A DNA stretch of 64,000 nucleotides from Bacteroidota bacterium. GTDB lineage: Bacteria > Bacteroidota > JABWAT01. Under the pieces are notes generated by a model, which saw nothing but the letters and a program-made list of their open reading frames with translations, did no database searches and had not been told where the DNA came from. Every line of letters starts with the position of its first letter. The first letter of the stretch is position 1. Shown one piece after another: positions 20,178-42,243 of the stretch. Position numbers and translations under genes: made by a program. The stretch is from NCBI GenBank assembly GCA_013360915.1, contig JABWAT010000010.1, positions 1-64,000 of the forward strand. The letters run 5' to 3'.

Positions 20178-20248
20178 AGTCCTTTAACTAAACCCTCCAT
20201 GGCAGTCGGTAATTCAATATTTTTTCAAGCTTGCCAATCAGCCTTCAT

Positions 20249-21001
20249 ATGAACCCTCTGGACCTTTTGATTGATCTGCACAAAAACGGGCACCGTCAGG
20301 GTCCGGGCAGTGATTTTCACACACGGCTGGCGCTGCAGTTTACCGATGTGGCCACCAGACCCACTCCGCAAATAGCCGATATCGGTTGCGGTACCGGGGC
20401 TTCCACGTTGGTTCTTGCCGGTGAAACAACGGGAACCATTGCAGCCATTGATTTATCGGCTGTTCTGCTTCAGCACTTGTCTGGCAGGATGACACAGGCT
20501 GGTTTTTCTCATCGGGTTTCTCCCGTTGAAGCTTCCATGGACCAGCTGCCGTTTCAGCCGGGCACTTTTGATCTGATCTGGTCGGAGGGAGCCATTTATC
20601 AGATGGGTTTCCGGGAGGGGTTAGCAGCCTGGAAACCATTTCTGAAACCGGATGGCTGGCTGGCCGTCAGCGACATCTGCTGGACCACCGGTTCGCGTCC
20701 ACATGAAATCGACCGATTCTGGTCAGCATCTTACCAACAAATGAAGACGGTTTCGGACAAGGTCAGAGAAATTGAGCAGGCTGGTTATACGCCGGCAGCC
20801 CATTTCATTCTGCCTCCTTCCTGCTGGATGGAAGAGTATTACCTTCCAACGAGAGACAGAATCCCCGGATTTTTAAACCGGCATCATCATTCTGAGGCGG
20901 CACAGGCAGTCGCAGGCGAGGACCAACAGGAACGGGAATTGTTCATCAGATATCAGGCCTTTTACAGCTATGGTTTTTTTGTCATGCAGAACCGGGAGTG
21001 A
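20249..21001 (+). CDS. Class I SAM-dependent methyltransferase
   Basis: The 250-residue protein has a Rossmann methyltransferase domain: motif I IADIGCGTGASTL (about 42-54), AIDLSAVLLQHLS (motif II), FDLIWSEGAIYQMG (motif IV, about 103-116) and FLKPDGWLAVSD. The later part (helical, YQQMKTVSDKVREIEQAGY) resembles small-molecule or arsenite-type methyltransferases but lacks the AS3MT cysteines. Substrate unknown. ATG 20249 is used rather than the in-frame ATG at 20231 because the family starts near MNPLDLL. The next methyltransferase gene starts 3 bases after the stop. Confidence 0.85.
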   Translation: MNPLDLLIDLHKNGHRQGPGSDFHTRLALQFTDVATRPTPQIADIGCGTGASTLVLAGETTGTIAAIDLSAVLLQHLSGRMTQAGFSHRVSPVEASMDQLPFQPGTFDLIWSEGAIYQMGFREGLAAWKPFLKPDGWLAVSDICWTTGSRPHEIDRFWSASYQQMKTVSDKVREIEQAGYTPAAHFILPPSCWMEEYYLPTRDRIPGFLNRHHHSEAAQAVAGEDQQERELFIRYQAFYSYGFFVMQNRE

Positions 21002-21004
21002 CCG

Positions 21005-21679
21005 ATGACGGAGCCAACACCTCATTTTCACCGTCCGGAAGATAACGAAACGGCTTCTACCTGGAACCGGGTAGCGGCGGACTATGAAACCCGCATTGGG
21101 TCGCTCACCATCTACCAACCCGGGTATGACCGGTTCCTCGGGCAGATTCAGGTTCCGGGAGCCCGCATTCTTGATGTCGGATGCGGTCCGGGAACCATTG
21201 CCGGCTATTTGTTAAAAATGCGTCCCGATCTGTCGGTTCTGGGGACTGACTATGCCCCGGCGATGGTTTCCCTTGCCAGCCAACGCGTGCCCGGTGCCCG
21301 GTTCCAGGTTATGGATATCCGGCACATCGGCACGCTGCAGGAACGGTTTCATGGCGTGATGGGGGGTTTTTGTTTGCCTTATTTATCGCCGGAGGATGGA
21401 AAACGTCTGATCAGGGACAGCTTTGACCTGCTTCTGCCTGATGGACTGTTCTACCTGAGTCTGGTGGAAGGAAACCCGGAGCGTTCCGGATTTCAGAGCA
21501 ACAAACGGGGTGACCGTGTGTACTTTTATTACTATCAGGCTGAAGTTATTTCAGATTGGATGCTGGAAGCCGGATTCGAAAAACCTGATTTACAGTCCCT
21601 TCATTGGGAGCGACCGGGATCTGGCACCGAGACTCATCAGATTTTACTGACCAGAAAACCAGCCTCACAGATGCCATGA
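21005..21679 (+). CDS. Class I SAM-dependent methyltransferase
   Basis: The 224-residue protein is a compact class I methyltransferase: WNRVAADYETRIG start, ARILDVGCGPGTIAGYLL (motif I), LSVLGTDYAPAMVSLA and GVMGGFCLPYLSPEDGKRLI. It is unrelated in detail to the methyltransferase just upstream, and the two are separated by only 3 bases, so they are cotranscribed. Substrate unknown. Its stop overlaps the ATG of the NTF2-like gene at 21676, giving a three-gene coupled unit. Confidence 0.86.
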   Translation: MTEPTPHFHRPEDNETASTWNRVAADYETRIGSLTIYQPGYDRFLGQIQVPGARILDVGCGPGTIAGYLLKMRPDLSVLGTDYAPAMVSLASQRVPGARFQVMDIRHIGTLQERFHGVMGGFCLPYLSPEDGKRLIRDSFDLLLPDGLFYLSLVEGNPERSGFQSNKRGDRVYFYYYQAEVISDWMLEAGFEKPDLQSLHWERPGSGTETHQILLTRKPASQMP

Positions 21680-22038
21680 CAATTAAAGAAAAATCGGTTG
21701 CCTTTCTCACCCTTGCCTCGGCAGGAAAAGTGGATGAAGCGTTTCAATCTTTTATTCATCCGCAATTTATTCATCACAATCCCTATTTTTCCGGCGATCA
21801 GCAATCCTTCCGGCAGGCCATGGCCGATCATGCCCGGCAATTCCCGGATAAGTCGTATGACGTGTTGCGTGCTTTGGAAGATGGAGCCCTGACCACGGTT
21901 CATGGAAAAGTGGTTTTTGGTGATTCAATCTATTCGGTGATCCACATTTTTCGTTTTCAGGATGGCCTGATCGCCGAAGCCTGGGAAGCGTCGCAGGAAC
22001 TTGTAAAAGAGTCACCCAATCAGCACGGTCTGTTCTGA
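21676..22038 (+). CDS. NTF2/SnoaL-like protein
   Basis: The 120-residue cytoplasmic protein has the SnoaL-like polyketide-cyclase/NTF2 fold: EKSVAFLTLASAGKVDEAFQSF, then HPQFIHHNPYFSGDQQSFRQAM and the C-terminal IYSVIHIFRFQDGLIAEAWEASQ. The HHNP segment and the terminal Glu-Ala-Trp are typical of the family. Many members are small-ligand binding or isomerase proteins; no reaction can be named. The ATG at 21676 overlaps the TGA of the methyltransferase gene, so translation is coupled. Confidence 0.83.
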   Translation: MTIKEKSVAFLTLASAGKVDEAFQSFIHPQFIHHNPYFSGDQQSFRQAMADHARQFPDKSYDVLRALEDGALTTVHGKVVFGDSIYSVIHIFRFQDGLIAEAWEASQELVKESPNQHGLF

Positions 22039-22043
22039 TTTTG

Positions 22044-22072
22044 TTGCTCTGCCAACTGATAGCGTATATTCA
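22044..22072 (+). promoter_or_regulatory. Possible promoter of the ion-channel gene, implying a leaderless mRNA
   Basis: TTG (22044-22046) and TATATTCA (22065-22072) are 18 bases apart. A start point 5-8 bases downstream would fall at about 22077-22080, on the ATG itself. No ribosome-binding site is seen before that ATG. The same spacing occurs at 9671-9699. Confidence 0.4.
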
Positions 22073-22076
22073 GTCC

Positions 22077-23120
22077 ATGATGTTTCGTTTTCTGTCCGGA
22101 ATCAGACTCTTTTTACCTCTGCTCAGCATGCTGATGGTTGCTCCGATCGGTCATGCTTCTGAACCGGAACCCGTCATTGAAACCGTTTACGGGCTTCACC
22201 TGAAAAAAATCGTTCCCGATTTCGCCGATGGTAAATTCTACGCCGAGTTTTACTGGTGGATGAAATTCACCAATGACAGTCTGGTCACCGGCTGGTCCAA
22301 TGAAGACATTGTAAACCTCGAATACATCAATGCCCATCAGGCGAAAGTGGGTGGCATTCTCACCGAGATTCAGGAAATCAAGGAATTGTCCCCCAACCAC
22401 TTTTACTATTCAGGCTACCATCAGGGTAGTTTCTATTTTGATCCTGACTATACCCGGTATCCCTTCGACAATCAGGAATTTAATATCATGATGGAAAATG
22501 TCCTGATACCGGTTCCCGGATTTCGTTTTATCACCGATACCGTTTCTTTTCTCAAATCGGGTCAGATGCCCGGCTTTTTTGGACTTTCATCCGATATGCT
22601 TAGAAATGAGTCGGTGAATTTTAAGATTAAGGGAACCCGTTTTTCCACCAACAACGGCATTTACAATACCGATTTCGGTGATCCTGAATTTCCTCCTGCT
22701 TCTGAATACAGCCGGATGAAAATCACCATTCTGATCGAACGATCCTTTGTTCCGTATATCGCCAAACTGATTATTCCGCTGGCTATTATTCTGTTTCTTG
22801 TCTATCTGCTTTTCTTCATCCCGGCCGAGAAAATTGACATTGCTGCCGGATTGACGGTTACCTCGCTTCTGAGCGCCATTGCCTTTCAGCTGGCCGTGAA
22901 CAGCGACCTTCCTCAGATCGGATATATCATCTATGTGGACAAGGTCTTCTATACGTGTTATTTCCTAATTGCTGTTTCCATGACCGTATCCCTCTGGAGC
23001 TATTATCTTGACCGCAAAAGAGATGCATCCTCCCTCGTGCTGGTCGAACGGATCAACCGGTATGCCCGGATTGTTTTTCCGCTGGTCTTCCTTTTCAGTC
23101 TGTTTTACTTTGCAGCCTGA
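22077..23120 (+). CDS. Prokaryotic pentameric ligand-gated ion channel (Cys-loop receptor family)
   Basis: The 347-residue protein has a signal peptide (about 1-27), an extracellular beta-sandwich ligand-binding domain (about 30-222), and four transmembrane helices: M1 about 224-248 (IPLAIILFLVYLLFF, central Pro234), pore-lining M2 about 253-275 (AGLTVTSLLSAIAFQLAV), M3 about 281-308 and M4 about 329-345. The signature loop contains YPFDNQ (128-133) without flanking cysteines, as in bacterial homologues GLIC and ELIC. NSDLPQIGYIIYVDKVFYTCY after M2 matches the bacterial M2-M3 linker. It would form a homopentameric channel in the inner membrane; ligand (protons or a small amine) and ion selectivity are unknown. 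M2 starts after PAEKID, which suggests cation preference. Confidence 0.9.
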   Translation: MMFRFLSGIRLFLPLLSMLMVAPIGHASEPEPVIETVYGLHLKKIVPDFADGKFYAEFYWWMKFTNDSLVTGWSNEDIVNLEYINAHQAKVGGILTEIQEIKELSPNHFYYSGYHQGSFYFDPDYTRYPFDNQEFNIMMENVLIPVPGFRFITDTVSFLKSGQMPGFFGLSSDMLRNESVNFKIKGTRFSTNNGIYNTDFGDPEFPPASEYSRMKITILIERSFVPYIAKLIIPLAIILFLVYLLFFIPAEKIDIAAGLTVTSLLSAIAFQLAVNSDLPQIGYIIYVDKVFYTCYFLIAVSMTVSLWSYYLDRKRDASSLVLVERINRYARIVFPLVFLFSLFYFAA

Positions 23121-23298
23121 ATTATTCAGGGTTTCCTTCCCCTTCCATGCTCACCGGGTCCGTTGATCTGTCACAAATTCCTGAACAGGTTTCCCAGACA
23201 CCCGGTCTTATTTTTCCTTCAACCCGACTTCAGATTTCATTCCTTTTTCCGATATTCAGTTCCTTTATTTCCACAATCTTCATTTTAAGGAACACCTT

Positions 23299-40284: not shown

Positions 40285-42243
40285 TCAGTCTGGCATGCTG
40301 GCCGACAGTTTTTCCCAGTCGACGTACAGTCTGGCGATGGTTTTCTGCAGGTCGTCATACTGCTTCGAGTGATCCATCATTTCCCTGGTGGTTTTTTTGG
40401 TGAACCCGGGTGAGGCCATCTCAGCTTCCAGTTCCTTCATCTGTTTTTCCGCCTTTTCGATCTGCACTTCCACCTTCCGGATGGCTTCGCGGTGTCCCCG
40501 TTCACCTGCTGAACGCTTTGCGCGTTCTTCGGCTTCGAGCCGTTTTTGCTCTTTCGTCTTGTATCCGGCCGTTGTGGAAGGCGAAACGACTTTTTCCTCT
40601 CTCGCTGTTTTTTCCACTGGCTGACTGATGGCTGGTTTCCAGACCCGTTCGTAGAAATCGAGATAGCCATCCATGTAGGTCTTCATCACTTTGTTGTGAA
40701 TAAAGACCACCTTGTTGCAAACCTGATCGAGAAAGTACCGGTCGTGGGAAATGATGATGAGGGTGCCATCGAAATCCTGAAGGGCTTCCATGAGAAGTTC
40801 CTTTGATTCCATATCCAGGTGGTTGGTTGGCTCATCCATGATAATCAGGTTATGCTGATTCACCAGCAGTTTGGCCAGCGCCACCCGGGCTTTTTCTCCA
40901 CCAGAGAGAACGCCAATGTTTTTAAAAACATCATCGCCTTCGAACAAAAAACATCCCAGCAGATTCCGGACTTTCGGGCGGAACGCCGCCGGTGATTCGG
41001 CCAGCACTTCATCGATGATGGTGTTGCGAAGATTCAATTCCTCGACCTGATGCTGTGCATAAAAGCCAACCTTAACCTGGCTGCCGATTTTCAGTTCTCC
41101 TTCTGTCACGGTTTCCCTGCCGAGAATCATTTTCACCAATGTGGATTTTCCCGATCCATTCAGTCCGGCCAGCGCCACCCGATCCCCTCTTTCGACCATC
41201 AGGTCGGCGTTTTCGAACAGGCAATTGGATCCGAACCGTTTCCCGAGATGCTTGCCTTCCACCACGGTCCGGCCGCTGCGGGGAGCTTCCGGAAATTCGA
41301 AGTGAATGCGTTTCTCACCCGACGCCAGCTGGATTTTATCAATTTTTTCGACCTGTTTAATCCGGGACTGGACCTGACGGGCTTTTGATGCCTTGAAACG
41401 GAACCGTTCAATAAACCGGTTCAGCTGGGCCAGTTGTCGCTGCTGATTGGCATACTGGGCCATGAGTTGTTCTTCGCGGGCGACCTTTTGTGCCTCATAA
41501 GCGGTGTAATTTCCTGCATACTCGGTCAGTTTGCCATTGTCGAGTTCAAGAACCCGGCCCACGATGGCATCCAGAAAGGTTCGGTCGTGTGAAACCAGGA
41601 TCAGCGCGCCCGAGTACGATTTCAGGTGGTTTTCGAGCCAGTCGAGCGTTTCCAGATCGAGGTGGTTGGTCGGCTCATCCAGCAGCAGGTAGTCAGGTTC
41701 GGCACAAAGCAACCGGGCCATGGCCATCCGCATCCGCCATCCACCCGAAAACTCCCGGACCGGCCGCGAGAAATCGGCCACTGAAAAACCGAGCCCCATC
41801 AGAATCGATTCTGCACGTGATTTAAGTGTGAAACCATCCGACTGCTCGAAACGCTGCTGAAGGGTTCCGTAATGGTGAAGCACATCGTCGAGATCGGGAT
41901 CTCCGGCGGCGCTTAACCTTGCAATTTCATGTTCAAGTTCCCTCAGCTGTCCCTCGATAGAAAGCACCGATTGAAAGGCATCAAGAACAGAATCGAGCAG
42001 AGACCGGTCCCCGGCCTCGACTGAGAAATCCTGTGCCAGATATCCCAGTTCAATGTTTTTTGCCCGGTGTACCTCACCCGAATCGGGCTGGACTTCACCG
42101 AGGATAATTTTCATCAGGGTCGATTTTCCGCGACCGTTGGCGCCGACAATGGCAATTCGGTCTTTGACGTTGATCTGAGTGGATACACCGTCGAAGACAA
42201 CCTGATGGTGGAACTGGAGTTTTATACCGGAAAGAGTAATCAT
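40285..42243 (-). CDS. ABC-F family ATP-binding protein
   Basis: The 652-residue cytoplasmic protein contains two ABC ATPase domains with Walker A GANGRGKST (about 35-43) and GLNGSGKST (about 350), signatures EFSGGWRMRMAMARLL and VLSGGEKARVALAKLL, the inter-domain linker rich in Arg/Gln (YANQQRQLAQLNRFIERFRFKASKA) and a C-terminal coiled coil (about 560-645). It has no membrane domain. ABC-F proteins act on the ribosome as translation factors; the C-terminal coil is like that of Uup/YdiF types. ATG 42241-42243 is the family-like start (MITLSGIKLQF). Confidence 0.94.
   Translation of the reverse strand: MITLSGIKLQFHHQVVFDGVSTQINVKDRIAIVGANGRGKSTLMKIILGEVQPDSGEVHRAKNIELGYLAQDFSVEAGDRSLLDSVLDAFQSVLSIEGQLRELEHEIARLSAAGDPDLDDVLHHYGTLQQRFEQSDGFTLKSRAESILMGLGFSVADFSRPVREFSGGWRMRMAMARLLCAEPDYLLLDEPTNHLDLETLDWLENHLKSYSGALILVSHDRTFLDAIVGRVLELDNGKLTEYAGNYTAYEAQKVAREEQLMAQYANQQRQLAQLNRFIERFRFKASKARQVQSRIKQVEKIDKIQLASGEKRIHFEFPEAPRSGRTVVEGKHLGKRFGSNCLFENADLMVERGDRVALAGLNGSGKSTLVKMILGRETVTEGELKIGSQVKVGFYAQHQVEELNLRNTIIDEVLAESPAAFRPKVRNLLGCFLFEGDDVFKNIGVLSGGEKARVALAKLLVNQHNLIIMDEPTNHLDMESKELLMEALQDFDGTLIIISHDRYFLDQVCNKVVFIHNKVMKTYMDGYLDFYERVWKPAISQPVEKTAREEKVVSPSTTAGYKTKEQKRLEAEERAKRSAGERGHREAIRKVEVQIEKAEKQMKELEAEMASPGFTKKTTREMMDHSKQYDDLQKTIARLYVDWEKLSASMPD

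Follow-up and report, generated by a model that had tools for sequence, protein, structure and literature searches.

What kind of protein is encoded at positions 22041–23120 of the analyzed 64,000-nt stretch of Bacteroidota DNA (hereafter, the window), what does it respond to, and how is its gene transcribed? A preliminary description of the sequence had placed a bacterial pentameric ligand-gated ion channel (pLGIC) at 22040–23120, apparently made from a leaderless mRNA. For bacterial pLGICs in general, little is known about natural ligands or physiological roles. The features described below lie on the forward strand unless stated otherwise.

Identity, pore and ligand pocket of the channel

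The longest reading of the ORF (22041–23120) begins with a TTG codon. The ATG at 22077 (ATGATG) is preferred as the start codon since it fits the signal peptides of the homologues, and the resulting gene (22077–23120) encodes a protein of 347 aa. This protein is a genuine pLGIC, a bacterial relative of the animal neurotransmitter-gated ion channels, and there is no serious alternative to this assignment, with which the preliminary description was right. The best PDB match identified by phmmer was 4yeu (3.7e-14), an entry whose listed sequence consists of an ELIC-like extracellular part fused to the transmembrane (TM) domain of GLIC. This was followed by 6fl9 (2.7e-11) and 6v4a (3.3e-11), which we take to be sTeLIC and DeCLIC, respectively; the TM domain is the part significantly matched in both. 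NCBIfam model LGIC_1 also matched (E 1.8e-11, under its curated cut-off), and the protein could be aligned with nine MAG homologues. The AlphaFold model of the subunit (single chain; mean pLDDT 86.1, pTM 0.76, with low pLDDT at residues 1–3 and 25–27) consists of an extracellular beta-sandwich at the N-terminus and four TM helices after it. Its best Foldseek matches were GABA-A receptors and GLIC (E ~1e-19, TM-score 0.70–0.79), and these values, like those of the PDB search, are far beyond chance. In the Pfam search, PF02932 (Neur_chan_memb) remained below its cut-off (E 0.016; 15.9 bits versus 28.1) and the ligand-binding domain model PF02931 gave no match in the protein. This near-miss reflects the limited sensitivity of the models and not a structural trait of the channel family.

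The subunit is complete, and all of the channel hallmarks named at the outset were found. A predicted Sec signal peptide, read from the sequence, occupies approximately residues 1–28 (...IGHAS; 22077–22160), and the N-termini of the homologues are of a similar kind. Alignments locate the YPFDNQ Pro-loop (residues 128–133; 22458–22475) between beta-6 and beta-7, with P129 and D131 invariant in 30 of the 30 aligned rows. The sole Cys of the protein is C294, in M3; the extracellular domain is therefore Cys-less and the Cys pair of animal Cys-loop receptors is absent from it. Helix M1 (residues 225–247; 22749–22817), which carries P234, was defined from the AlphaFold secondary structure and an alignment of ten close members, and the M2 pore helix (residues 253–275; 22833–22901) from alignments and the model. 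The M2-M3 linker, LPQIGYIIYVDK, is followed by M3 (residues 286–313; 22932–23015) and M4 (residues 317–346; 23025–23114), both taken from the model.

In GLIC numbering, M2 contains D254 at position −2′, G258 at 2′, T262 at 6′, L265 at 9′, A269 at 13′ and L272 at 16′. The loss of pore residues in homologues had been named as a ground for questioning channel function, and none was found: position −2′ is acidic throughout the clade (D in nine of the ten close members, E in one), and 2′, 6′, 9′ and 13′ are conserved apart from a conservative change in a single member (L035). An acidic −2′ residue is typical of cation-selective channels, as in the intermediate ring of ELIC (PMC3119659). The −2′ ring predicts that the window channel is cation-selective, although it falls short of proof.

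Position 0′ is occupied by Ala, while a basic residue is found there in 79% of pLGICs (PMC4795631). Together with the existence of two broken family members, one truncated at the N-terminus (L039, from a Chlorobiota OPB56 genome) and one frameshifted (L037), this might be taken to indicate a degenerate, non-conducting protein of the pLGIC fold, retained as a periplasmic binding receptor. We consider this very unlikely, since a basic residue is likewise missing from 0′ of GLIC, which is a working channel, the pore residues are kept at ~50% identity across divergent genomes, and the window copy is intact and of native coding composition. In coding score it ranks at the 84th percentile of the genes in this genome, and its GC content is 45% (versus 50%), so that by composition the gene is not a recent arrival.

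The putative ligand pocket resembles that of ELIC, an amine-gated cation channel of Dickeya/Erwinia. W60-W61 (22254–22259) lie on beta-2, on the loop D side of the pocket, and W61 is kept in at least 90% of the wider alignment (A3). When the protein was aligned by HMMER to the ELIC-like extracellular part of 4yeu (ELIC numbers being chain index plus 10), E140 (22494–22496) fell on the loop-B acid E131 in a gap-free stretch. Within loop C, YNTDFGDPEFPPASEY (Y196 to Y211; 22662–22709), Y211 aligns with F188. Both E131 and F188 (numbered 187 in that report) belong to the ELIC pocket (PMC3119659). All ten close members in the alignment share W60, W61, E140, Y196 and Y211. By alignment, the loop-B Glu and loop-C aromatic residue of the ELIC type are preserved in the window channel. 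The two channels also share the fold, the Pro-loop and an acidic ring at the inner end of M2, but their overall identity is low and loop C differs in both length and sequence.

The acid at the E131 position and the aromatic residues on loops C and D make an amine the best guess for the ligand, a prediction that depends on a single acid and a few aromatic residues in a protein less than 20% identical overall to solved channels. Gating by protons, as in GLIC of Gloeobacter, is a rival reading. The TM domain of GLIC is among the closest solved relatives, and the window channel shares with this proton-gated cation channel the fold (TM-score ~0.78 by target length), the acidic −2′ residue and the lack of a basic 0′ residue. 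However, the two proteins are only 18–19% identical in the structural alignment and belong to separate clades, and the 11′ His of GLIC (LIAHIAF) is replaced by Ala in every clade member. Given also the retained acid at the E131 position, proton gating seems unlikely, and an amine-type ligand remains the preferred prediction. DeCLIC differs in another respect: its 642-residue chain contains a large N-terminal extra domain, absent from the window channel.

Phylogeny and distribution of the clade

Scanning the GTDB species genomes identified eleven loci: ten encode relatives with 47–59% identity to the window protein, and the eleventh is the truncated L039. The clade comprises nine intact relatives, the window protein and the more distant L220 protein (genome G551). 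Its support values were 98/98 for full-length sequences and 95/89 in a tree of the TM domain to which GLIC, sTeLIC, GluCl and one GABA-A subunit were added. Its ten MAG proteins come from Bacteroidota/Chlorobiota-type genomes, and nine of them are 47–57% identical to the window protein. The names “Chryseobacterium gleum” and “Sphingomonadales” attached to some relatives are MAG labels and are unreliable as taxonomy.

Phylogeny had been proposed as a check in the preliminary description, and it separates the clade from GLIC, from sTeLIC and from other Bacteroidota pLGICs. The latter (IHDINF-type and Prevotella-like type; 17–26% identity to the window protein) share with it the loop C pattern Y-x-x-x-FG, the residues corresponding to E140 and D154 and, in most cases, an acid near −2′, but they carry R at 0′, and one group of them lacks the M1 Pro. 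The window channel is an intact member of a small pLGIC clade, which is distinct and apparently undescribed, and which offers structural work a new target remote from GLIC, ELIC, sTeLIC and DeCLIC.

Bacterial receptors of this kind had been called rare and patchy. The patchiness was borne out: a pLGIC was detectable in 26 of the 395 sampled genomes of the phylum, and in none of three genomes of the same family as that of the window. With ~7% of the sampled genomes positive, “rare” is only half right. Within those 26 genomes, members of the subfamily were found only in the window's genome and in G203. Searches of viral and plasmid collections yielded no relative of the channel. Since a synteny comparison with the three same-family genomes revealed no homologue of the channel gene or of its SnoaL-like and DUF5362-like neighbors, no empty-site comparison could be made with them.

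Several relatives' loci show local peculiarities. In genome G203 (L004/L039 and L222:8301-9266), a pLGIC remnant lacking its N-terminal part lies close to the end of a contig, and two HGSNAT-like copies that resemble each other are also situated at contig ends, which suggests a locus that was duplicated and has partly decayed, or was misassembled. The frameshifted copy (L037:2416-3452) has a transposase-like gene upstream, and the same genome carries a divergent intact member (L220:3994-4998). At L038 (3091-4881), a gene encoding an ankyrin-repeat protein lies directly 5′ of the pLGIC gene.

An HGSNAT-like gene adjoining the channel gene in relatives

In seven of the ten relatives' genomes, the channel gene is directly adjoined by a gene encoding an HGSNAT-like transmembrane acyltransferase. 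At six loci (L031, L032, L033, L034, L036 and L038) the partner gene starts inside or at the channel stop codon, mostly with a 4-nt overlap, and at L029 it is located upstream, overlapping the channel gene. Since L031–L033 are near-copies, approximately five independent lineages keep the pair. A strong partner match occurs once per genome in seven of the ten genomes, every time beside the channel gene; two of these seven also contain a weak second match (~22 bits). In G551, the HGSNAT-like gene and the channel gene are on different contigs, and searches detected no HGSNAT-like gene in G544 or G549 and no match to the partner in the window's genome. Within 1.5 kb of other Bacteroidota pLGIC genes, no HGSNAT-like gene was found.

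The partner is a multi-helix protein of ~345 residues that matches HGSNAT_cat (PF07786, 4e-18) and Acyl_transf_3 (PF01757, 1e-12). Residues D10, R13 and N24 are invariant among the partners and correspond to the DxxR motif of the TmAT superfamily and to the family-specific Asn of HGSNAT (PMC12423673). The partner shares with the HGSNAT/YeiB branch both Pfam domains and a DxxR followed after 10 residues by Asn, but only some partner members have a His after TM1, so that acyltransferase catalysis is predicted, not proven.

Reported neighbors of pLGIC genes include PBP-II, Cache and Na+/H+ symporter genes (PMC549065) and, for ELIC, a decarboxylase gene (PMC3119659), which has no counterpart beside the window channel. 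The pairing of a channel with an HGSNAT-like protein was not found in these two accounts of pLGIC neighbors, although it may be described elsewhere. In two lineages another ion channel gene lies immediately upstream of the pLGIC gene, ending 5–10 nt before its start: an Ion_trans (voltage-gated-type) channel at L030 (2791-3714; 1e-27) and a CASTOR/POLLUX-like channel (5e-28) at L032 (970-2886) and L033 (2989-4932).

The channel–acyltransferase pair is the main point to follow, as a testable lead on bacterial pLGIC function. The presence of one enzyme-like partner at translational-coupling distance across divergent lineages leads to the hypothesis that the ligand is something a TmAT can acylate, and the pair offers a two-gene cassette in which to test it. 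A more far-reaching reading, which we regard as speculative and rather doubtful, is that the subfamily forms a two-gene signaling module, in which a dedicated HGSNAT-like acyltransferase would draw on acetyl-CoA of the cytosol to make or inactivate, on the periplasmic side of the membrane, the ligand of a ligand-gated cation channel; in some cases a voltage-gated or CASTOR/POLLUX-type channel would belong to the module as well. Such a module would act as a bacterial chemical-to-electrical unit, of which the window copy would be a partnerless example.

The explanation that best accounts for the locus as a whole, and that we hold to be likely, is a Cys-less bacterial ligand-gated channel operating as follows. 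Since one channel copy was found in the window's genome, the gene product would assemble as a homopentamer, whose exported domain would bind a small ligand in the periplasm; binding would open an inner-membrane pore lined by M2. In most relatives, the co-translated acyltransferase may act on the ligand, by modifying, supplying or inactivating it, or may assist in making the channel. The window's genome would have lost this partner, or never had it, and would probably express the channel from the candidate promoter considered below.

Transcription of the channel gene

The channel gene is preceded by a run of same-strand genes: two methyltransferase genes (20231–21001 and 21005–21679), separated by 3 nt, and a SnoaL-like gene (21676–22038), which overlaps the second of them by 4 nt (ATGA) and ends 38 nt before the channel ATG. 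Downstream, a 178-nt gap is followed by a DUF5362-like gene (weak match) and RsgA. None of these neighbors suggests a ligand. A weak hairpin, CCTGAATTATTCAGG, at the channel stop codon (23116–23130) was detected by a consensus scan, whose sites are no commoner than in shuffled sequences; Rfam and tRNA searches of the window yielded nothing.

The proposed leaderless promoter was evaluated against 2.06 Mb of the genome, taken in stretches, in which 1659 genes were called by a simple hexamer model. A promoter model, trained by EM on genes preceded by 80 nt or more of free sequence, converged on TTG, 20 nt and TAnnTTTG, i.e. the Bacteroidota promoter (PMC6847099). The positions of the box are bimodal, with one class at −45 to −26 (leadered), another at −15 to −10 (leaderless) and few between. 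Among intergenic genes, 33 boxes were found in the leaderless position, compared to 6.5 in shuffles. Genes with a 20–80 nt same-strand gap, kept out of the training, served as a hold-out set: 18 of 234 reach the score of the channel gene in the leaderless position, compared to 2.8 expected from dinucleotide shuffles. For genes with gaps under 20 nt, the figure was 1 of 591.

The promoter-like pair described at the outset exists as stated: TTG (22044–22046), 18 nt and the box TATATTCA (22065–22072), which starts 12 nt before the ATG at 22077 and scores 4.61 nats in the genome's model. That TTG is not the best fit to the model, however; the TTG at 22041–22043, 24 nt before the box (genome optimum 23), fits better as the candidate −33 element. 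With a box off consensus at two positions and a spacing off by one, the score is marginal, at the lower edge of the leaderless class.

These results bear on two readings. In the first, transcription of the channel gene would start at or next to its ATG, from a Bacteroidota-type promoter. In the second, the channel gene would be the fourth gene of a methyltransferase–methyltransferase–SnoaL operon, translated without an SD sequence from a leadered polycistronic mRNA, with TATATTCA a chance match. The gene order is what such an operon would show, as there is no convincing terminator between the four genes; a longer polycistronic RNA is quite possible, given the position of the channel gene 38 nt after the overlapping run. 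The site itself is weak: when the 38-nt gap was shuffled, 1.5% of trials produced one at least as good in the leaderless position. The claim that no ribosome-binding site is visible held (no SD 4-mer at −18 to −4), but this is weak evidence for leaderlessness, since ~58% of the genes here lack one (SD 4-mers were found in 42% of genes, compared to 10% in a control window). On the other side, no functional connection between the upstream genes and a channel is apparent, and hold-out scores within 1 unit of that of the channel gene outnumber those in shuffles about fivefold (14 versus 2.9). The operon is therefore a serious contender, although we lean away from it.

The genome does contain a statistically supported leaderless class of the required geometry, but for the channel gene itself leaderlessness is only plausible. 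The class counts taken by themselves would make it fairly likely; since both the gene starts and the control are approximations, we rate it as moderately probable. Read-through from the upstream genes is possibly an alternative to the gene's own promoter or an addition to it, in which case initiation at or next to the ATG would be superimposed on the longer transcript.

Three other lines were discarded. The absence of SD sequences from leaderless-type genes (0 of 57) is uninformative, as the box occupies the SD window. The ATG preference of the leaderless class (56/810 versus 2/137, p 0.011) vanishes in comparison with leadered promoters (p 0.38). A sigma-70 consensus scan gave no excess over shuffles, and this consensus is not applicable to Bacteroidota promoters.

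No common promoter was recognized by eye in the upstream regions of the relatives, so that leaderlessness, if real, belongs to the window's genome and not to the channel family. The sister genome G001 shows similar SD use and leadered promoters, with near-start boxes in only 2 of 140 genes. In a 2011 survey, leaderless genes were reported in one of 37 Bacteroidetes/Chlorobi genomes (PMC3160421). The leaderless class described here provides a further case of a Bacteroidota genome in which Shine-Dalgarno and non-SD initiation occur alongside predicted leaderless initiation. Within the window, other predicted leaderless genes start near 42243, 57339 and 58757 (reverse strand), each with a box 10–15 nt before the ATG.
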